Shown: positions 28,972-51,646 of the stretch, piece by piece
Layout of the letters: each line of letters opens with the position of its first letter
Position numbering within the stretch: the stretch's first letter is position 1
Source of the DNA: a bacterium
GTDB taxonomy: Bacteria; Desulfobacterota; Desulfocorpusculales; Desulfocorpusculum
Assembly: GCA_037481695.1 (NCBI GenBank)
Contig: JBBFLE010000001.1
Location: 564,989 to 628,988 of the forward strand
Direction of reading: 5' to 3'
DNA length: 64,000 nucleotides
Translations under genes and position numbers: made by a program
Notes under the pieces: generated by a model
Database searches by the model: none
What the model was told of the DNA's origin: nothing
Seen by the model: the letters and a program-made list of their open reading frames with translations, nothing else

Positions 28972-29036
28972 GAAGACTCAAGGGAAAGAAAGCCCCGGGT
29001 AAGCCCCCAAGAATCATGGGTAGGGGTGAGATCTTC

Positions 29037-31202
29037 ATGTTTCTTTTCAACACCCTCACCAGGCAAAAGGAAGAGTTCAGACCCCTTGAGCCAGCTCGGG
29101 TCACCCTGTACAGTTGCGGCCCCACGGTGTACAGGGATGTGCACCTGGGTAATCTCAGGACCTTTCTGCTGGCAGACTGGTTGAAACGCACCCTGATCTT
29201 TTTGGGCTACAAGGTTTTCCACGTCAAGAACATAACCGACGTGGGTCACATGCGACAGGAACTTCTGGAAAGAGGCGAGGACAAGCTCATAGCAGCAGCC
29301 CGAAAGGCAGGCATGAGCTCGAGGCAGATAGCAGATCATTATACCAAAGCCTTCATGGAGGACGAGGCCAGGCTTAACATTCTTCCAGCCGATCTTTTCC
29401 CCAGGGCCACAGATCATATTCAGGAGTGCATCACTCTCATAGAAAGGCTCTTGGAAAAAGGCCACGCCTACGTTGTGGGAGGGAATGTTTACTTCGATGT
29501 GGCCAGCTTTGAAGCCTACGGAAAACTCTCGGGAAATCTCATCCAGGGACTGATGGAGGCCGTGAGAGTCGAGGCGGATCCTTACAAAAGGAATCCCAGG
29601 GATTTCACCCTCTGGAAGGCTGCAGAGCCTGGCAGGGAGATGAAGTGGCCGAGCCCCTGGGGAGAGGGATTCCCCGGCTGGCACATAGAGTGCTCGGCCA
29701 TGTCTCTCAAGTACCTGGGGGAACGCTTTGACATCCATTCAGGCGGCGTAGACAACATCTTCCCACATCACGAGGACGAACTGGCACAATCCGAGGCCGC
29801 AGCAGGGCATAAGGTGGTCAATTACTGGGTGCACGGCCAGCATCTTTTGGCAGACGGGCTGAAGATGGCCAAGAGCGCAGGCAATGATTACACCATCAGG
29901 GATGTGGAGCGCTTGGGCTTTGACCCCTTGGCCTTTCGCTACCTTTGCCTTACCGTGCACTACCGAAGCCGGCTCAACTTCACTTTTTCAGCCTTAAGAT
30001 CAGCTCAACGAGGCCTCTCCCACATACGAAGACACGCCGAGGATAAGGCCTGGCAGGAGGCCGAGCTGCCTTGCCAAGGCCCTGGGCTCAAGTGGCTCGA
30101 GGCTTTCATTGATGCCATCAAAGACGATCTGGCCATGCCCAGGGCGCTGGCCGTGGTTTGGGCCATGCTCCACGATAAGAAGCTCACAGAAGCTCTCAGG
30201 GCACGCTTGCTGATCCACATGGACAAGGTCTTGGGGCTGGGCCTGGAGAGCTGGCCCCAGCTTGCCACAGCTGTGCCCCCCGAGGGCCTGGGGCAGGTGG
30301 AGCTGAGGGATAGGTTGAGGTCAGCCGATTTGTTTGAGGAAGCCGACAGAATCCGCCAAGGTCTCCAAATGCAAGGCTTTGAGATAAGGGACCTGCCGGG
30401 GAAGACCTTGTTGTTGAGGAGATCCCGTGCCGAATGGAAAGGTCTGCCCAGGGAGATCTCATCTTCCCGAGAGGTAAGAAGCCTCCTTGAGGAGCCTGAT
30501 CAATACGATTTCACGGTCTCCCTGGTGGCCTGGAACAACTCCGGAGAAATCCTGCGCTGTTACAAAGCCCTGAGGCAACACTGTCTGGGACACAGAATCC
30601 AGATCATCGTTGTGGAAGGGGGTTCTTCTGATGAGAGCCGGGAGGCCATCCTGAGGGCTCTGAGTTCTGATCCCGATGCAGCAGTGTGGCTGGCGGATCA
30701 TCGTCTGGGGGAGGCTGCCTCCAGAAATGTGGCTTTACGTCAAGCCTTGGGCCGAATAGTGGTGCTTATGGACCCCAGTCTGGAACCCCTGGGAGATGTC
30801 ATGAGCCCCTTGGAGCGCACCCTCCAAAACCCAGAGGTGGGGCTCACTGGTGCAGCAGGCCTGGTCACAAGGGATTGCCAGAAGTTCCATGATTCTCCAG
30901 GTCCTGAGGTCCACGCCATCACTCTTTACTGCATGGCCTTTCCCAGGCGGTTGGTGGCTCTGGCGGGCTGGATGGACGAAAGGTTTCGGTTCTACAGACA
31001 CCTGGATCTGGATTACTCTTTCCGAATAAGACAGCTTGGATTCAAAGCTATCATCACCCCTGAGCTGCCTGTTAGATTTCATACCCACACCATCTGGGAG
31101 AGCATGGATCCCCAAGAAAGGTATCGTAGAAGTAGAGCCAATTTCTACCTGTTTTACAGAAAATGGCATCACCACACCCAGCTTTTCTCCCCTACCTCTT
31201 GA
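29037..31202 (+). CDS. cysS: Cysteinyl-tRNA synthetase fused to a GT2-type glycosyltransferase domain
   Basis: A 721-aa protein. Residues 1 to about 465 are a complete class I Cys[10 protein letters not shown] with the zinc cysteine, the HIGH-type motif HLGN near residue 34, zinc residues in WHIECSAMS and FPHHEDE, the KMSKS-type loop KMAKSAGN near 275, and the anticodon-binding region. From about residue 488 a glycosyltransferase-2 fold begins ([57 protein letters not shown]). The join is in one frame with no stop. The start at 29037 has GGGGTGAG upstream, whereas the ATG at 29016 has none. CysRS charges tRNA-Cys in the cytoplasm; the role of the transferase part is unknown. Confidence 0.9.
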
Positions 31203-36334: not shown

Positions 36335-37444
36335 TTAGCTATAGGTATATGCCTTAGGGGCCCTGCGAATCCATATCTCACCGCTTGCTTCTTCCTGGAA
36401 AAGGCCGCTTTCCTCCAAGGCTGAGACCACCTTGTCCAACATGCTCTCGGCTATACAGATGTCGCACACTTCCCGTGCTGAGGACATGCCCTTTACTCTT
36501 GTGCCTTGGTCAAAAATCTGCTTCATCCTGCTGATGGTCGCGCCTCCTGCTCCAACTTTCATGGCTGATTTAACGAGGTCTTTTCCAGTTCCTTCATTGC
36601 ACACCACGGACAAATCCAGAAGATCCAAGAGAAAATAATCCGCTGTTACCCCAACCAACTCCTTGTGGGAACGTCTTCGCCATACCATATCCCCCTTCAA
36701 CTCATCCAGTGCCGCAATTATCTGCTCCACGCTGGCCACATGTCTTGTGGGACCGCATGTAATTCTGGTATCCACCACCCCCTTGCTTATGGGATACAGG
36801 TAGATGAAACCCTTTCCGGGGCGGTCCAGTTGTCCGGTGCGAATCATCATCCTCATCAGAGTATCTGCGTCATAAGAGCTTGCTGCAATGTGGATGATTT
36901 CTTTTTGGCCGGGTATGGCTATGCGGAGAAGCCCCAGTCTGTCACGAATCCCCATTCCTTGCCCAAAGGAAATGGCCGGCACGCTAACCCCCATATCCAG
37001 GGCTATGCGTGCCACCTCGTTGGCCTGGCCTCTTTGCACCACACAGCATATTCCCACCAGCGAAGACTGCTTTATTGCTGGATTTTCACCTGGGGGAGGG
37101 AACTGAACATCCAGGGCCCATTTGTGCCTGCCCAGCACCTCCACCTGCTCGCCGTACACAGTCCCTCGACCGGGTACCATCAACTCACACCGCTTGACCA
37201 CGTAATCCAAGGCAGCCTCTTGCTGCTGAGGCGCCACCAAGAATTGAACCATCTCCCCGGGCTCTTCCACCAGGCGGAAGCGCTGAAGCAGGTCCAAACC
37301 CCTCCTGCTCTCGTGCAAAGTGAGGATACGAACTGGAGTCATACCGTAATCCTTCAGACCAACTCGGTCTAATTGCGAGAGGAGGGCTGGGGTCAATCCC
37401 TTCTTCAGAATACAAGTAATCAAAAAAGCTCTTATTTTCTCCAC
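36335..37444 (-). CDS. Protein with three tandem PII-like domains
   Basis: A 369-aa soluble protein. Three segments of about 100 residues have the ferredoxin-like pattern of PII/GlnB-type regulators: residues 1-108 (ending GRGTVYGEQVEVLG), 128-235 (SSLVGICCVVQRGQANEV, GMGIRDRLGLLRIAIPGQKEII, PGKGFIYLYPI) and 255-369 (YFLLDLLDLSVVCNEGTGKDLVKSAMKVGAGGATI). It ends 15 bp before the start region of the DUF1538 gene, which lies upstream on the same strand. PII-like proteins beside DUF1538 membrane proteins recur in bacteria, suggesting that it senses a nucleotide and gates that putative transporter. The ligand is not known. Confidence 0.78.
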   Translation of the reverse strand: MEKIRAFLITCILKKGLTPALLSQLDRVGLKDYGMTPVRILTLHESRRGLDLLQRFRLVEEPGEMVQFLVAPQQQEAALDYVVKRCELMVPGRGTVYGEQVEVLGRHKWALDVQFPPPGENPAIKQSSLVGICCVVQRGQANEVARIALDMGVSVPAISFGQGMGIRDRLGLLRIAIPGQKEIIHIAASSYDADTLMRMMIRTGQLDRPGKGFIYLYPISKGVVDTRITCGPTRHVASVEQIIAALDELKGDMVWRRRSHKELVGVTADYFLLDLLDLSVVCNEGTGKDLVKSAMKVGAGGATISRMKQIFDQGTRVKGMSSAREVCDICIAESMLDKVVSALEESGLFQEEASGEIWIRRAPKAYTYS

Positions 37445-37459
37445 AACTCTAAGCCCTCT

Positions 37460-39601
37460 TCACTGCAAAGTCTTCTCAACGATGATCTTGTCTGTTCGTC
37501 CCAGCCGAAGCCCAACGGTCAGCACCGTGAGAATTGGCCCCACCGAGGCCATGGCCAAGATGCCAAAGCCCTCCACCACCTCCACCTGGGTTCCCAAGCC
37601 CAGGCCCATGGCCAAGACCAGAGGAACGGTAACAGGACCCGTGGTAACCCCCGCACTGTCCCATGCGATGTTAACCATTTCTTCGGTGGAGCACCTTGTG
37701 AGGATCAATGCCAGTAGGTAAAGAGGAGCTAGTAACCAAAACAACGGAATGCCCAATACTATCTTTAGAACTCCCAGGCACATGCCCATTCCAACCCCAA
37801 GGGCCACCGCATGAATGAGCGTGTTTTTTCTGAAAGTGCCCACCGTGATTTCTTCTACAGCCAGGCCAAGGGCATTGAGGGCTGGCTCCGCCAAAGTGGC
37901 TCCGTAGCCCATGATCAAGGCAAAGAGGATTATGAGAAGTATCCCCTGCCAACCCTTCTCCTTGCCCAGAATAGGGCCTCTTACAGGCACATGAGTATAT
38001 GTTTTCCTCTGGGCATCGATCCTGCTGTCATCCACAGTGACCGCCTCTATTCGGCCATTTGTTTTCCAGTAAAAAAACTTGTGCTCTTTGCCGTGTTCAT
38101 CCAGAGCTGTTTGAATATTCTTCTCATCGAAATTCTCTATTATCACCGTTTTCTCAGGCAACGAGATGCTCTTGAAGGACACAGGCAATCTATCCCCCAC
38201 CTGATTCCCCAGCCTTGTAAGCCCGGTTTCCATCCCCATGTTAAAGAGCGTCATTCCCACCAGGGCCAAGAAGATCCCCAGCAGGATCTCGTCGGACTGA
38301 GGCAATCTTTCACGCAGTACCAGCAAGAGAACCAAGAGTAAGAACCCCACAAGGGGAATAACTGCCTGCGATGAAATCAAAATGTTCTTGTAGATCAACT
38401 GACCGATTCGACCCCTTTGTCCAGAGATCTCCTCCTGGCTTCGGTTCAACAACTCGGGCTTCACCTCTGAGATCCAGCCCCGTTGTTGGCCTGATGCCTT
38501 TCTAAGAATCCAGTGATGGAAGGCGCCTATTTCTTCCCCAAAAACTCTTCTCATCCTACCCTCATCCAAACAAAGCGACTTGATGAAAGCCGCCATCTCT
38601 TCCCTGTTATCATTCCAAAATAAGGATTGATCCTTGTCGCTTCCGTTTTCCATGACGTACCTAACAAGTTGATCTTCATCCCGAAAAAGAGGAAGGATCT
38701 TGGCACGGTTTGCGTGATTGAAGAAATCCTCTCTGCTCATGGGTTCTGGAGCCACTTGGGCCAGGCCGATGCCCAAGACCAGAACACTCACCACCGGGAA
38801 CAGGGATGCCAGGGTCACCACACCAAACCCTGAGTTCTCTAGGCTCTCTCGGCCCACCACGCGACAAACACCTATCCCCAGTGCCAGGATCAAAGGCACT
38901 GTGACAGGTCCTGTGGTTACCGCTCCGCAATCCCAGGAAAGACCGGACATGGAGACCAGTTTGGGATCCAGGTAGGCCCATCCCGTGACAGCCAGAAGGC
39001 ATGTCACAAGCAGGTAGATGAAAGGCTTGAGAGACCAACCATAGAGGTAGCGCAACATTCCCAGCAGGACCGAAACACCCACTCCTAGTCCCACTGCCCA
39101 AACCAGATAGTGGGAATATTTGTTCAGGGCCAAAAAGAGCACAGGAGCCTCCCAAGGCTTCACACCAAGCCCTGCATTCTTCAGGATTCCTATGGCCGGC
39201 TCGGCGAAGGTGGCTCCAACACCCAGGACAAGGGCCACAAACAACACGGTCCCAAGGTTGCTTTTCTCCGGAAGCCTCAGACCAATTATTTCACCAAGAG
39301 GCATGATGCCCAGCACCAGACCCTCCATGAAAAAAGCCAAACCTACCACTATTACCACCACACCGAGGGCTATGCTCCAGGCATCCAGGATTTCCATCCC
39401 CAAGATGAGGGTCTGGAATAGAACTAGATAGGAAATGATGACAGCCACGGACTTTACCTGCTCGAGCAGCTTGCTCTTGACATACTGTGCCAGGATCTCA
39501 AAGCGCTGCCCAAAGGTTATTTGCCTACTTGCCGTATTGGCGGATGATTCTCTTTCAGACACAGTAGTTCCGTCCTTGGATTTGCCTCTTTCCACAGACA
39601 C
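37460..39601 (-). CDS. Membrane protein with two DUF1538 repeats (putative transporter)
   Basis: A polytopic protein of about 713 residues with an uncertain start (GTG at 39601 or a nearby GTG). The hallmark VTTGPVTVPL occurs twice, near residues 232 and 658, each followed by a long hydrophobic block. Each half also has GATFAEPA or GATLAEPA, so the protein is an internal duplication with the two halves separated by a soluble segment of about 150 residues (from about 288) and a further region with VIIENFDEKNIQ and KTNGRIEAVTVDDSRID. DUF1538 proteins are unassigned transporters. It lies immediately upstream of the PII-like gene. Confidence 0.85.
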   Translation of the reverse strand: MSVERGKSKDGTTVSERESSANTASRQITFGQRFEILAQYVKSKLLEQVKSVAVIISYLVLFQTLILGMEILDAWSIALGVVVIVVGLAFFMEGLVLGIMPLGEIIGLRLPEKSNLGTVLFVALVLGVGATFAEPAIGILKNAGLGVKPWEAPVLFLALNKYSHYLVWAVGLGVGVSVLLGMLRYLYGWSLKPFIYLLVTCLLAVTGWAYLDPKLVSMSGLSWDCGAVTTGPVTVPLILALGIGVCRVVGRESLENSGFGVVTLASLFPVVSVLVLGIGLAQVAPEPMSREDFFNHANRAKILPLFRDEDQLVRYVMENGSDKDQSLFWNDNREEMAAFIKSLCLDEGRMRRVFGEEIGAFHHWILRKASGQQRGWISEVKPELLNRSQEEISGQRGRIGQLIYKNILISSQAVIPLVGFLLLVLLLVLRERLPQSDEILLGIFLALVGMTLFNMGMETGLTRLGNQVGDRLPVSFKSISLPEKTVIIENFDEKNIQTALDEHGKEHKFFYWKTNGRIEAVTVDDSRIDAQRKTYTHVPVRGPILGKEKGWQGILLIILFALIMGYGATLAEPALNALGLAVEEITVGTFRKNTLIHAVALGVGMGMCLGVLKIVLGIPLFWLLAPLYLLALILTRCSTEEMVNIAWDSAGVTTGPVTVPLVLAMGLGLGTQVEVVEGFGILAMASVGPILTVLTVGLRLGRTDKIIVEKTLQ

Positions 39602-45554: not shown

Positions 45555-45908
45555 TCCATGCCTCCGGTGGAAGAAAAAGATATTGATGGATAATATATTA
45601 ACCAGAGATATTGAGCAAGGCCGAGTATCGGAGCTTTGGCTCTCTAAAGGCCAAGTAAATGCTGAAAAACTCTGTCAGGGGCAGCAACTTTGCCCATCAA
45701 GATGGATATTGCCGGGAAATTCCAACCAAACCTCCTTTCTTGGCCTGGGCCTGGTCTTTGGGGTTCATCACACGGGGCCGAATCAGGGAAATCACGGTGA
45801 ATTGAGCGGTCAAGAATATCCAAATCAGGAGCTACCTCCTCCATGGGGTGAGTCGTATTGACACATGGGCCCAAGGGGGTTTTAGTATGTTGCAGGATTG
45901 GAGTGAGC
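45555..45908. other. Divergent control region between the ACT gene and moaA
   Basis: A 354-bp gap with no gene. On the minus strand TTGCTC-N17-TATTAT near 45590-45620 could serve the ACT gene. On the plus strand TTGACA at 45858-45863 is followed at 17-19 bp by T-rich TTTAGTAT, a weak match for a moaA promoter. Confidence 0.4.
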
Positions 45909-46901
45909 ATGCTGATTGATCCTTTTCAGAGGGTAATAGATTATCTTCGTATTTCGGTGACGGACAGGTGCAATCTGCGGTGCCTTTACTGCATGCCGCA
46001 GGATGGGATAGAACCGCTACCTCACCAAGAGATTCTGACCTACGAGGAGATCCTGAGGGTGGCCCGGGTGGCCGTTGGGCTGGGCATCAGCAAAGTGCGT
46101 CTTACCGGTGGGGAGCCGCTGGTGCGCAGGGATCTGGAGCGCCTTGTAAGCAAGTTGGCTGGCATAGATGGCATAAGAGATCTGAGTATGACCACCAATG
46201 GTGTGCTCCTGGAACAAAGAGCCAGGTCTTTGCGAGATGCGGGCCTGAAACGTATAAACATCAGTCTGGATTCACTGAATCCTGAGCGATATAGGGCCAT
46301 AACCCGAGGCGGGGACTTGGGAAAGGTCTGGGCGGGCATACTGGCTGCCCTGGAAGCCGGCATGCACCCTGTTAAGATAAACGTGGTGGCCATGGATGAG
46401 CACAACGGAGACGAGATTCTCTCTTTCGCCAGGCTCAGCATAAGCTGGCCCATAGAGGTTCGTTTCATAGAGCGTATGCCCTTGGGTACCCAGGGCCGTT
46501 GCCAGAGTGACGGTTTTCTCTCAGCAGAGTCCATCCTGAGAAGATTGGAAGAGGCCTTCTTCTTGGAACCACTTGAGATGAGAACTGGCAATGGTCCTGC
46601 TCAGCTCTATCGCATTGAAAAAGGCCTTGGAACCATAGGCATCATCGCCCCCATGACCAGGCATTTCTGTAGCTCCTGCAATCGACTAAGACTCACCCCT
46701 GATGGCCGACTGCGGGTCTGCCTCTTCTCAGACCATGAGGTGGATATCAAGGGGCTGCTGCGATCTGGAGCATCCGACAGAATGCTCATGGAAAGAATTC
46801 AGGAGGCCATCTCCAGGAAGCCATCCCAGGGAAGCCCAGGCCCTCAGGCAGACCTTCGCGTAAAAAAGTGTGTAAGGCCCATGAGCCGAATAGGAGGTTG
46901 A
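45909..46901 (+). CDS. moaA: GTP 3',8-cyclase MoaA
   Basis: A 330-aa radical SAM enzyme that starts molybdopterin (molybdenum/tungsten pterin) synthesis by converting GTP to 3',8-cyclo-7,8-dihydro-GTP. The N-terminal cluster motif is C-x3-C-x2-C (CNLRCLYC), followed by TGGEPLVRRD. The C-terminal cluster residues are in HFCSSCNRLRL and RVCLF, and the conserved terminal Gly-Gly is the last two residues. The start at 45909 has GGAGTG upstream. Its product is needed for the AOR encoded at the left edge of the window. Confidence 0.95.
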   Translation: MLIDPFQRVIDYLRISVTDRCNLRCLYCMPQDGIEPLPHQEILTYEEILRVARVAVGLGISKVRLTGGEPLVRRDLERLVSKLAGIDGIRDLSMTTNGVLLEQRARSLRDAGLKRINISLDSLNPERYRAITRGGDLGKVWAGILAALEAGMHPVKINVVAMDEHNGDEILSFARLSISWPIEVRFIERMPLGTQGRCQSDGFLSAESILRRLEEAFFLEPLEMRTGNGPAQLYRIEKGLGTIGIIAPMTRHFCSSCNRLRLTPDGRLRVCLFSDHEVDIKGLLRSGASDRMLMERIQEAISRKPSQGSPGPQADLRVKKCVRPMSRIGG

Positions 46902-47001
46902 TGGGGCCAGGAGTCTGTTGATCCCACAGGTTCAGACCCATGAACCGAAGGCATTTGCGTCCCGCATGGCGGGTATGTAGCCGAACCAGGAGGGTGAAAG
47001 A

Positions 47002-50000
47002 ATGCTTTTGCTGGCTGACCTGCACATTCATTCCCCATATTCCCGAGCCACCTCCAGGGAATTAAGGCTGGAGACCCTGCATGTTTGGGCGCAGAAAAAG
47101 GGACTGGGCCTTGTGGGCACAGGTGACTTTACGCATCCTGCCTGGTTCAGGGAAATCCTGGAAAAGTTGGAGCCAGCAGAAGAAGGTTTTTGGCGTCTGA
47201 AACCTGAGCTGGCCGCTTCGGTGGAAGCAGAAGTGCCTCAGAGCTGCAGGTCTGAGGTGCGTTTTGTGCTACAAGGAGAAATAAGCACCATCTACAAGAA
47301 GGCTGGGCGCACCAGGAAGGTTCACCACCTGATCCTCATGCCTGACAGGATCTCAGCAGAGAAACTCATCTTGAGTTTGGAAAGAGTGGGCAATTTGAGA
47401 TCCGACGGCAGGCCCATCTTGGGTCTGGACTCCAGGGATCTCCTGGAGCTTGTATTGAATGCCTCTGAACAGAGCATCCTGATACCGGCCCACATTTGGA
47501 CTCCTTGGTTTTCGGTCTTTGGATCCAAGTCCGGCTTCGATGATCTGAACCAGTGCTATGGCGACCTCACAAGATACATAACAGCGCTGGAGACCGGGCT
47601 ATCTTCGGATCCAGCCATGAATTGGAGATGTTCCCAACTGGACTCCTATCGCCTGGTTTCCAATTCAGACGCACACTCTCCATCCCGTTTGGGGCGGGAA
47701 GCAAACCGATTGGACATTCCCATGTGTTTCTCAGGCCTCAAGAAAGCCCTCAGCACAGGGGAGGGACTCTTGGGAACATTGGAGTTTTTCCCTGAGGAAG
47801 GCAAGTACCATCTGGATGGACACAGGGAATGCGGAGTTCGAATGGAGGTCAGGGACACACTGTCCCATAATTTCCTATGCCCCTCCTGTGGGAAACCGTT
47901 GACCGTGGGAGTTCTTCACAGGGTGGAGGAGCTGGCCGATAGAGAACCAGGGACTCGCCCCGAGGGATCAAAGCCCTTTGAGCGTTTGCTGCCCCTGGAG
48001 GAAGTGCTGGGAGAACTTTTGGGCTGCAGCAGCTCGAGCCGTAAGGTGAAGGAGCTGTACAGCAAGATCCTTTCTCGCTGGGGACCGGAGATCCCCTTTT
48101 TGAGCCAGATGTCCCTGGAGGTATTGAGGGGAACATCCCTGGCCCCTCTGGCAGAAGCCTTAGACAGGATGCGAAGGGGAGAGGTGATTCTGGAAGCCGG
48201 GTTCGACGGACAGTATGGAGTGGTTCGTCTTTTCAGGCCCGGAGAAAGGAGCTCGCTGGGCGGGCAAATGAGCCTCTTGGGAGACTGGGACCGCTTTACT
48301 GATCCACCAGCGCCCCGTTATACTCCCGGGGTTAAAGAAGCAGCTCACCCATCTGTTCTTACCCCTGGGGAGACCAAAAGGCTCGAATCTCACCCACTGG
48401 ATTTGCATCAGCAGAAAGTTGTTCTCAGTTCTGAAAAGGCAATCCTGGTCATCGCAGGCCCTGGCACGGGTAAGACCAGGGCACTGACACAGAGGTTGGC
48501 TTTTTTGATAAAAAATGGTCAGGCCAAGCCTGAAGAAGTTCTGGCAATAACTTTCACACAAAAGGCTGCCCTGGAGATGCTAGAACGCTTGAGCGTACTT
48601 TTGGAGACCAACCACCTGGAGTCTGGCTTGAGTGTGAAGACCCTCCATGCTTATGGGCTTGGGCTCATAAAGAATTACTGGGACCGCATGCGCGGTGGAA
48701 CAGGTCCGATACTGGCAGACGAGCTCATGAGGAAGGATATCTTGAAAAGGGTCTTTGATTTGGGGCAGATCCAAGGCCATCCTAAATCTTACACCAGAGT
48801 TCTGGAGAGCATATCCCGTTACAAGCAGGGTCTTCTGGAACAGGAGCATGAAAGGAAGATGCTGGGAGAGCTGGTCAGGGCTTACGACCAAGAGCTGAGC
48901 CGCCAGGGAGCAGTGGATTACGAGGATCTGCTCTTGTTGCCCCTTGAGCTTTTAAGAAGAGATGAGGAGGTAAAGCGTCAGGTCACAGCAAGAATCCGGC
49001 ATCTGTTTGTGGACGAATTCCAGGACATGAATCCCATACAACTGGAGCTTCTGGGGGAGCTCATGGGCCCGCAAACCAAAGTTACCCTCATAGGAGACCC
49101 TGACCAGTCCATTTACGGATTCCGTGGAGCCAGGCCAGCCCAACTCCTGGAGTTAAAAACTCTGGTCCCTGAGGCAAAGGTCATGCTCTTGGAATTGAAT
49201 TACAGATCAACGGCCACCATTGTAGAGGCAGCCTCTGGGGTGATTTCCCATAATCCGGCTCTTTTCCCCCGAAGCATGAGGCCTTCTCGTGAAGCAGGGC
49301 CTCCTATCCAGATATGCCTTTTTGATTCCCCTGTGGCGGAGGCCATATTCGTGGCCCAGGAGATAGACAGGTTGCTGGGAGGGACAAGCCACTGGGCCAT
49401 GTTAAGGCAAAGCCCCCTGCCGCAACCGCAAGTACATCCTTTGGGCTTTGGCGATATAGCAGTTCTTTGCAGGCTCCACAGCATGCTTGCCCCCCTAGGG
49501 GAAGCCCTTGCCCGGCAGGGTATTCCATGTGAAAAAGTAGAGAGGGCCAGGGAGGAATCCCCCATGGGGCTAGGCATCCTCCTGGGAAAAATCCGTCAGA
49601 TGTTGGGCGGCCTTCCAGAAAGCTCTCCCGAAAAATGGAACCCCGAGGCTTGTTCCTCTTGCACTGGGATGATGGACTCTGGGAAAAAAGCCGGGGAGGT
49701 GATAAACCTGCTCCTCCAGGAGCTCTCAGAAAAGGAGCCGGCCATTAGGATTTATGCGGCCCGGCAGGAAAGCCAGTTCCAAAGGTTCCTTGAGTCAGCT
49801 GCCACCTGGCCTGGAGATGTGAGGGAATTCCTGGATTACTGGGTCCTCCTTTGGGAAGAGGACCATCCTCAGCCTGCTACAGACAAAGTTTCCCTGATGA
49901 CAGCCCATGCGGCCAAGGGTCTGGAGTTTCAGGTGGTCTTTGTGGTAGGGTGCGACGAGGATGTATTTCCCTTGAGGCAGCAAGGGACACTTGCCTACCT

Positions 50001-50217
50001 GGAAGAGGAGAGGAGACTCTTCTATGTTGCCATGACCAGAGCCAAAGAACTGCTTTATCTCACCACAGCAAAGAGTCGAGAGCTTCCGGGAGGGATAAAG
50101 GGTAAGGGACCTTCACGATTCCTCGAGGAGATTCCCAAAGACAAGCTCAGCAGGAGACAACCCACCTTTGGCCCCAGCCCGAATCCCGTGCAACTGAGCC
50201 TCTTCACAAACAGGTAA
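47002..50217 (+). CDS. EndoQ-like PHP endonuclease fused to UvrD/PcrA-type helicase
   Basis: A 1071-aa protein. Residues 1-425 resemble the TIGR00375/endonuclease Q family: PHP metal motifs LADLHIHSPYSRATS, GTGDFTHP, IPAHIWTPWF and SNSDAHSPSRLGREAN, then a zinc knuckle CPSCGKPLTVGVLHRVEELA near residue 293. Residues of about 465-1071 are a superfamily 1A helicase: IAGPGTGKTRAL near 486, DEFQDMNP near 670, GDPDQSIYGFRGA, LNYRST, TAHAAKGLEFQ and EERRLFYVAMTRAKE. EndoQ cuts 5' of deaminated bases and abasic sites, so a coupled nick-and-unwind repair enzyme is a reasonable inference. The ATG follows AGGAGGG. Confidence 0.9.
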   Translation: MLLLADLHIHSPYSRATSRELRLETLHVWAQKKGLGLVGTGDFTHPAWFREILEKLEPAEEGFWRLKPELAASVEAEVPQSCRSEVRFVLQGEISTIYKKAGRTRKVHHLILMPDRISAEKLILSLERVGNLRSDGRPILGLDSRDLLELVLNASEQSILIPAHIWTPWFSVFGSKSGFDDLNQCYGDLTRYITALETGLSSDPAMNWRCSQLDSYRLVSNSDAHSPSRLGREANRLDIPMCFSGLKKALSTGEGLLGTLEFFPEEGKYHLDGHRECGVRMEVRDTLSHNFLCPSCGKPLTVGVLHRVEELADREPGTRPEGSKPFERLLPLEEVLGELLGCSSSSRKVKELYSKILSRWGPEIPFLSQMSLEVLRGTSLAPLAEALDRMRRGEVILEAGFDGQYGVVRLFRPGERSSLGGQMSLLGDWDRFTDPPAPRYTPGVKEAAHPSVLTPGETKRLESHPLDLHQQKVVLSSEKAILVIAGPGTGKTRALTQRLAFLIKNGQAKPEEVLAITFTQKAALEMLERLSVLLETNHLESGLSVKTLHAYGLGLIKNYWDRMRGGTGPILADELMRKDILKRVFDLGQIQGHPKSYTRVLESISRYKQGLLEQEHERKMLGELVRAYDQELSRQGAVDYEDLLLLPLELLRRDEEVKRQVTARIRHLFVDEFQDMNPIQLELLGELMGPQTKVTLIGDPDQSIYGFRGARPAQLLELKTLVPEAKVMLLELNYRSTATIVEAASGVISHNPALFPRSMRPSREAGPPIQICLFDSPVAEAIFVAQEIDRLLGGTSHWAMLRQSPLPQPQVHPLGFGDIAVLCRLHSMLAPLGEALARQGIPCEKVERAREESPMGLGILLGKIRQMLGGLPESSPEKWNPEACSSCTGMMDSGKKAGEVINLLLQELSEKEPAIRIYAARQESQFQRFLESAATWPGDVREFLDYWVLLWEEDHPQPATDKVSLMTAHAAKGLEFQVVFVVGCDEDVFPLRQQGTLAYLEEERRLFYVAMTRAKELLYLTTAKSRELPGGIKGKGPSRFLEEIPKDKLSRRQPTFGPSPNPVQLSLFTNR

Positions 50218-50448: not shown

Positions 50449-51018
50449 TTAGCCTTTTGATATTATGCGCTCTATGTACTGGCCTGTTCTGGTGTCCACC
50501 TTGAGCAGATCACCCTCCTGTACAAAGAGGGGCACCTGAAGCACTGCTCCTGTTTCCAGTTTTGCCGGCTTGGTGGCACCGCTTGCCGTATCCCCTCGCA
50601 CCCCGGGCTCTGTTTCCACTACCTTTAACTCCACGAAGTTGGGAAGCTCCACCGCTATGGGTTGTCCTCGGTAAAAAAGCACCTTGACCTGGATCTGCTC
50701 TTGAAGGTACAGACGACTTTCTCCCAACTGCTCGGAGGACATGAAGAACTGCTCGTAGCTGTTGGTATCCATGAAACAGTGCTGGCCGCCTTCTTGGTAT
50801 AGAAACTGCATTTCTCTCTCTTGAAGATCAGGCCTTCCCACTTTGTCACCCGAACGAAAGGTTTCATCTCTTACAAGCCCGGTGAGAAGACTCTTGAGTC
50901 TGGTCCTTACAAATGCACCTCCCTTGCCAGGCTTCACGTGTTGAAAATCCACGATGATAAATGGTTCCCCCTGGAATTCTATCTTAAGCCCTTTTCGGAA
51001 CTCTGCGGTGGAATACAT
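50449..51018 (-). CDS. efp: Elongation factor P
   Basis: A 189-aa translation factor that rescues ribosomes stalled at polyproline. The start is MYSTAEFRKGLKIEFQG at 51018, after GGGAGA. The modifiable tip is KPGKGGAF, a lysine-type EF-P. Domain 2 and domain 3 motifs (VKVLFYRGQPIAVELPNFVELKV, KVDTRTGQYIERI) are complete. It is the last gene of the minus-strand signalling run, and its upstream leader overlaps the end of the 190-aa TPR-like gene. Confidence 0.95.
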   Translation of the reverse strand: MYSTAEFRKGLKIEFQGEPFIIVDFQHVKPGKGGAFVRTRLKSLLTGLVRDETFRSGDKVGRPDLQEREMQFLYQEGGQHCFMDTNSYEQFFMSSEQLGESRLYLQEQIQVKVLFYRGQPIAVELPNFVELKVVETEPGVRGDTASGATKPAKLETGAVLQVPLFVQEGDLLKVDTRTGQYIERIISKG

Positions 51019-51073
51019 GCTCTGGTCTCCCTCAAAAAGCTCTTTGGTGAACTTAAAGCCCAGGGCTTGTTGA

Positions 51074-51646
51074 TCAGCCTCCTGGGTTTGCTTCCTCAAC
51101 CTCTCCTTGTCTGCTGGCCATCCTGGCGTTCCTTATCCTGTGGACCATTTCCTGCAGGGACCTAAGCAGCTGACCTTGTCCGGGGGTTTGATCCCCTTGC
51201 GGGAATCGCTCCAGGTATTCCCTCAGCGTCACCTGATCTTGAGGATTCCTACTAAGCAATGTCTTATAGAGCCTCTGAGCCTCTTCCCTGTGACCCTGTC
51301 GATAGTAAAGATCAGCCAGTGTCCTGGACACCACCGGAGGCCTGGGGGGAGGTGATTTCTCCTGTCCACCCAGTCCCTGTGCTGCCTGAACCCATGTTCT
51401 TATCAGTGCATGGATCTTTGCCTGGCCCTGCGGGTCCCATCTGGCAGCTAGCTCCAACAGCTTTACCAGGGCCTTGGGCCTGGCCAGAAAGGGTAGCAGC
51501 AAATCCTTTAGCGCCTTGTAGCACTCCTCACTTGCCTGTGCCTCGGCCTCGGAAATAGCCCTTTGCAGGGCTGCTTCCCAAGAGCCCTTTTCCTTTTCGG
51601 CTTCAGTTACCTGGGCTGAAAACGGCTGCCCGATGGCCATCTCCAT
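51074..51646 (-). CDS. TPR-like helical protein
   Basis: A 190-aa protein with helical pairs and one clear tetratricopeptide unit (TLADLYYRQGHREEAQRLYKTLLSRNPQDQ near residues 108-136). Its ATG overlaps the TAA of the larger TPR gene (TAATG), implying coupled translation and a shared function. No signal peptide is seen. I do not recognise a specific family. Confidence 0.75.
   Translation of the reverse strand: MEMAIGQPFSAQVTEAEKEKGSWEAALQRAISEAEAQASEECYKALKDLLLPFLARPKALVKLLELAARWDPQGQAKIHALIRTWVQAAQGLGGQEKSPPPRPPVVSRTLADLYYRQGHREEAQRLYKTLLSRNPQDQVTLREYLERFPQGDQTPGQGQLLRSLQEMVHRIRNARMASRQGEVEEANPGG

Follow-up and report, generated by a model that had tools for sequence, protein, structure and literature searches.

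An EndoQ-family nuclease fused to a UvrD-type helicase in diverse bacteria, with candidate motifs for binding the sliding clamp

The window analysed here, a stretch of 64,000 nucleotides from a Desulfocorpusculum genome, contains a gene that joins an EndoQ-family nuclease to a UvrD-type helicase. The gene is a single ORF, uninterrupted from its ATG at 47002 to its stop at 50217, and lies between a moaA-like gene (45858-46901), from which it is separated by 100 bp, and a convergent EF-P-like gene on the minus strand (50449-51099). The initial annotation, made from the sequence alone, had described an EndoQ family member in one chain with a complete superfamily 1 helicase, and this is borne out by the ORF, by homology, and by an AlphaFold model and its Foldseek matches. 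Chance or misassembly as the source of the fusion is ruled out by independent fused homologues. The features of the locus, all on the plus strand, are as follows.

46988..46994, plus strand: Shine-Dalgarno-like AGGAGGG, by its sequence a good site for ribosome binding, 7 nt ahead of the ATG
47002..50217, plus strand: EndoQ-UvrD fusion gene, single ORF of 1071 aa
47002..48231, plus strand: EndoQ domain (residues 1-410), from the PfuEndoQ match and residue map
47821..47889, plus strand: zinc site, H274-C277...C293-C296 (C249, C252, C268 and C271 in PfuEndoQ)
48232..48396, plus strand: linker (residues 411-465)
48265..48279, plus strand: internal clamp-like motif QMSLL (residues 422-426)
48397..50160, plus strand: UvrD/Rep/PcrA-type SF1A helicase (residues 466-1053)
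48454..48477, plus strand: Walker A, AGPGTGKT (residues 485-492)
49012..49026, plus strand: Walker B, DEFQD (residues 671-675)
50191..50205, plus strand: C-terminal beta-clamp motif QLSLF (residues 1064-1068)

Residues 3-410 of the fusion protein align with residues 3-382 of PfuEndoQ (PDB 5zb8, 7k30-7k33), which is near full length (E=1.2e-54), with 37% identity over 373 aligned residues. According to the residue mapping, all metal ligands of PfuEndoQ are identical in the fusion protein, whose PHP metal site consists of D6, H8, H10, D42, E93, H108, H164, D223 and H225. Three of these, E93, H108 and H164, correspond to the essential E76, H84 and H139 of PfuEndoQ (reviewed in PMC8307549). The steric gate of PfuEndoQ, formed by H139, G169 and S171 and reported to exclude thymine and adenine (PMC8307549), is likewise identical, as H164, G199 and S201. 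Among 44 fused homologues, D6, H10, D42, E93, H108, H164, E197, G199, S201, D223 and H225 are invariant (44/44), and H8 is kept in 43. A four-ligand zinc site with CPxCG is also retained, as HC3 rather than the C4 of PfuEndoQ, and 43 of the 44 have His in place of the first zinc Cys. The CPSCGK zinc knuckle named in the initial annotation is present, but its CPSC pair is not the whole site, which is H274, C277, C293 and C296. Absence of the EndoQ pocket residues had been named as an observation that would refute the proposal; pocket and metal residues are both present, so the proposal survives this test. Judged by alignment and predicted structure, the EndoQ nuclease of the fusion protein is intact.

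The fusion protein does not reach the cut-off of the NCBIfam model TIGR00375 (156-161 bits vs 326.6), a cut-off that is an annotation threshold and not a biochemical criterion. The other bacterial EndoQ forms tested, stand-alone forms included, also fall below it (133-193 bits), which indicates that this bacterial branch lies outside the model's reach. Compared with the archaeal enzymes (PfuEndoQ, PF1551; TkoEndoQ, TK0887), the fusion protein shares the whole fold, the metal ligands, the steric-gate residues and a clamp-docking motif after the domain; it differs in its 37% identity, its HC3 zinc site, its attached helicase and its bacterial beta-clamp type motif where the archaeal proteins have a PIP box. 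Bacterial stand-alone EndoQs, such as those of Bacillus pumilus and B. subtilis and the forms of 404-570 aa from the window's phylum, have the same domain, and a Q[LM]xLF-like motif closes most of those sampled at the equivalent position, but they lack the helicase, and in the tree most stand-alones of that phylum fall outside the fused clade. EndoQ cuts 5' of dI, dU and AP sites (PMC4357722), and a bacterial EndoQ is reported as active in work cited in PMC6202378 and PMC8307549.

The second half, residues 466-1053, matches PcrA, Rep and UvrD (E about 1e-64), and both PF00580 (E=5.9e-62) and PF13361 score over cut-off. The complete set of SF1A helicase motifs is found, with Q470, K491, D671/E672, Q702, R708, R735 and R1013 present in all 44 fused homologues. 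This retention of catalytic residues in both halves shows that both engines are under selection, and motifs and model agree in showing a helicase motor that is intact. None of the equivalog models is reached (pcrA, 331 bits vs a cut-off of 911; rep, 312 vs 951; uvrD, 272 vs 1144), which places the fusion helicase in a separate subfamily. In keeping with the family, it has all SF1A motifs and a matching fold; it differs from UvrD, PcrA and Rep in being compact, with less sequence separating motifs IV and V, and from UvrD and PcrA in that its end carries a clamp motif where they usually have a C-terminal extension. In a FastTree phylogeny with long branches, housekeeping UvrD sequences, including the genome's own, are separated from the fused and split helicases across one branch. 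The helicase half is the less conserved of the two, at roughly 26-40% identity to the window's protein vs 50-65% for the EndoQ half. The same genome encodes an AddA/RecB-like protein with an SF1-type helicase match (G000:C8:43764-45140) and a weak UvrD-like match of the SF1 type (C17:15539-15724).

An AlphaFold model of the fusion protein, computed with the 44 fused homologues as input, has a mean pLDDT of 85 and consists of two well-folded bodies and a loose C-terminal tail. In Foldseek searches the EndoQ body matches PfuEndoQ at a target TM of 0.88-0.90, and the helicase body matches UvrD, PcrA and Rep at a target TM of up to 0.77. Residues 425-460 of the linker fall below pLDDT 50 and are probably disordered. 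Pfam detects the helicase half alone, so routine annotation of such genes probably reads 'UvrD-helicase domain-containing protein'.

The fusion protein ends in ...NPVQLSLFTNR, in which QLSLF is a textbook bacterial sliding-clamp motif that did not figure in the initial annotation. Such a C-terminal motif is found in 70 of the 77 complete fused proteins vs 7 of 576 control ORFs (Fisher p about 3e-77, a value that overstates independence because the rows are related), and in none of 15 housekeeping UvrD-type proteins. Where the helicase is encoded as a split gene, four of five proteins also end this way (QLKLF, QMTLF, QLSLF and QLKLF), and the fifth ends in QKYLF. A second candidate, QMSLL, lies in the linker and occupies the place of the C-terminal QLxLF of stand-alone EndoQs, 20 of 28 of which have a clamp motif where the EndoQ domain ends, by a loose pattern. 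The linker copy is present in 46 of 86 fused proteins, which rules out the double motif as a universal trait. Archaeal EndoQ binds PCNA via a C-terminal PIP box and is stimulated by it, and the discoverers of EndoQ had already pointed out beta-clamp motifs in the C-termini of its bacterial homologues (PMC4858679); in the texts accessible to us, we found no mention of the motif recurring where the helicase ends. By its sequence, then, the fusion protein has one canonical and one probable clamp-binding motif, and its tethering to the clamp is likely.

An EndoQ domain was identified in 40 of 59 related genomes, fused in about 20 (one of them frameshifted), encoded as a separate gene in 17, and cut by contig ends in 3. 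A survey of named genomes returned at least 587 relatives. The best 80 loci from this survey include 68 fusions, a share biased upwards because the 80 were picked by similarity to the window's EndoQ domain, and many are from MAGs. At least 12 named phyla of bacteria have the fusion, and its members come from Thermodesulfobacteriota, Myxococcota, Actinomycetota, Chloroflexota, Planctomycetota, Gemmatimonadota, Bacillota, Binatota, Elusimicrobiota, Melainabacteria, Fibrobacterota, Pseudomonadota MAGs and KSB1. The description of EndoQ as known mainly from archaea and some bacteria understated its spread in bacteria. At five loci (L076, L111, L121, L124 and L136) the halves are adjacent genes in the same order. 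When the tree is rooted on PfuEndoQ, every one of the 87 fused rows falls in one clade (SH-aLRT 98), which also takes in 5 split and 9 single forms, while 14 stand-alone EndoQ forms of the window's phylum lie outside it; the outgroup branch is very long and the root is tentative. With the fused rows in one supported clade together with split and single forms, the simplest reading of the sequences is one old fusion followed by some splits or losses. Clades of the tree mostly follow phyla. No EndoQ was found in the phages, plasmids and viral contigs searched, and a mobile or viral origin was rejected.

Across the loci compared, no conserved operon partner was found, except for a dnaN-gyrB neighbourhood in one order. 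At seven Desulfobacterales loci (L062, L107, L114, L116, L118, L119 and L131) the fusion gene is divergent beside dnaN, gyrB also adjoins in six of the seven, and two small conserved genes of no assigned function lie in between in most. Separately, L089 and L115 (the latter from Gastranaerophilales) share a conserved small ORF 34 bp from the fusion start on the same strand, which also occurs near the fusion in L102.

The initial annotation had proposed a self-contained alternative-excision pathway. This is not supported: the EndoQ and helicase halves come with no attached 5'-flap nuclease or exonuclease, no polymerase and no ligase, and the genome keeps UDG (C12:36348), EndoV (C22:37749), Nfo and Xth. 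A survey for loss of UDG or EndoV alongside the fusion, which had been suggested at the same time, likewise gave no sign of replacement: across the 59 relatives there is no anticorrelation of EndoQ with either enzyme (among genomes with completeness of 90% or more, Fisher p is 0.55 for EndoV and 0.24 for UDG), and complementary loss is ruled out by these tests and by the presence of both enzymes in the window's own genome. Such coexistence agrees with the redundancy of repair described for Methanosarcina (PMC6202378).

We consider it probable that the fusion is a beta-clamp-tethered, nick-and-unwind repair enzyme for deaminated bases. The protein would ride on the sliding clamp, where the EndoQ half would flip out a deaminated base (uracil or hypoxanthine) or an abasic site and cut just 5' of the lesion, with a 3'-OH and a 5'-phosphate at the cut in the damaged strand. 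The helicase half, with a 3' to 5' polarity taken from the UvrD/PcrA/Rep family, would then load at the nick on the intact strand and travel away from the 3'-OH, so that the damaged strand would be peeled off as a 5' flap or gap. A clamp-bound polymerase could extend the 3'-OH, and a separate flap nuclease or exonuclease, together with a ligase, would complete the repair, with the fusion protein acting beside UDG and EndoV and not in their place. All steps beyond the integrity of the two domains we infer from the EndoQ homology, the conserved catalytic residues, the folds, the clamp motifs and the retention of the link across phyla. UvrD acts with the same geometry after MutH incision 5' of a mismatch. 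Both the fusion and UvrD following MutL/MutH or UvrABC incision would use a 3'-5' helicase from a nick near the lesion, the difference being that in those systems the nickase is a separate protein, whereas in the fusion nickase and motor are in one chain. According to PMC4357722, nicking by EndoQ produces a 3'-OH and a 5'-phosphate and puts the lesion at the 5' end of the downstream piece. This is exactly the piece that a 3'-5' helicase on the intact strand would displace, and the 3'-OH would stay behind for synthesis. The discoverers of EndoQ drew two ways of completing the repair, namely strand displacement with Fen1, or a second cut by EndoV and then removal by a helicase (PMC4357722); the fusion would supply the helicase in cis. 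Several points count against this reading: other organisms have stand-alone EndoQs that function with no helicase joined to them, conservation is lower in the helicase half, the linker clamp motif is absent in about half of the fused proteins, and the bacterial clade is far from PfuEndoQ.

Other readings keep the two domains and assign them different work. The bacterial EndoQ clade is joined to PfuEndoQ by a very long branch, and this distance and the score under the TIGR00375 cut-off suggest that the substrate range may differ. The PHP half could be an EndoQ-fold nuclease that acts chiefly on something else, such as AP sites, a different base lesion, or branched or mismatched DNA; the helicase would serve that substrate, and deaminated bases would be a minor target. 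The change of the zinc site from C4 to HC3 is consistent with this, as is a host already equipped with UDG, EndoV, Nfo and Xth. A shift of substrate nevertheless seems somewhat unlikely, given that the fusion protein shares with PfuEndoQ the known steric-gate residues (PMC8307549) and all metal ligands, with almost no variation across the 44 homologues.

An enzyme centred on its helicase is likewise conceivable, a replication-linked clamp translocase that would scan single-stranded or newly made DNA while its EndoQ half marked strands containing uracil or inosine (from misincorporated dUMP or dIMP) for removal. Clamp motifs, proximity to dnaN at the seven Desulfobacterales loci and the cutting by EndoQ of U and Hx in ssDNA as well (PMC11354406) all fit such a role, but the dnaN neighbourhood is confined to one lineage, with the gene on the opposite strand, and there are no other conserved neighbours; we regard this as unlikely. 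Far less probable is a role in defence, instead of housekeeping repair, against phages whose DNA contains uracil or is deaminated. Defence has been proposed as a role of Bacillus EndoQ, in work cited in PMC8307549, and in PADLOC the helicase half matches the GajB and DRT helicase models, but these matches are limited to the shared helicase core. A known defence system is ruled out, since the generic core alone matches. The lack of EndoQ in the phages, plasmids and viral contigs searched, the lack of recognised defence neighbours and clades that mostly follow phyla also speak against defence.

The joining of EndoQ to a helicase is real and conserved, and apparently undescribed: no description was found in the openly accessible literature, and an earlier mention outside it is possible. 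The 2015 EndoQ paper includes drawings of the domains of Desulfovibrio homologues. Whether the nick-and-unwind protein amounts to a pan-bacterial, undescribed repair enzyme in which one polypeptide recognises the lesion, cuts, removes the strand and docks on the clamp (through two clamp motifs) is finely balanced, and we lean slightly to the doubtful side. If it does, it would correspond, in one protein and for deaminated bases, to the early stages of mismatch or nucleotide excision repair. The EndoQ literature has yet to settle how the lesion is taken out once the nick is made, and the conserved helicase link and clamp motifs offer a concrete, testable answer: nick, peel and resynthesise on the clamp. 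The picture of EndoQ also shifts, from an archaeal speciality to a domain common in bacteria and mostly fused among the named loci sampled.

Elsewhere in the window, a single ORF of 728 aa at 29016-31202 (plus strand) presents an odd fusion of a cysteinyl-tRNA synthetase catalytic domain (PF01406) with a family 2 glycosyltransferase (PF00535). On the minus strand, 37460-39601 encodes a 713-aa membrane-like protein with two DUF1538 (PF07556) stretches, and just downstream of it, on the same strand, lies a gene of 369 aa without assigned function (36335-37444).
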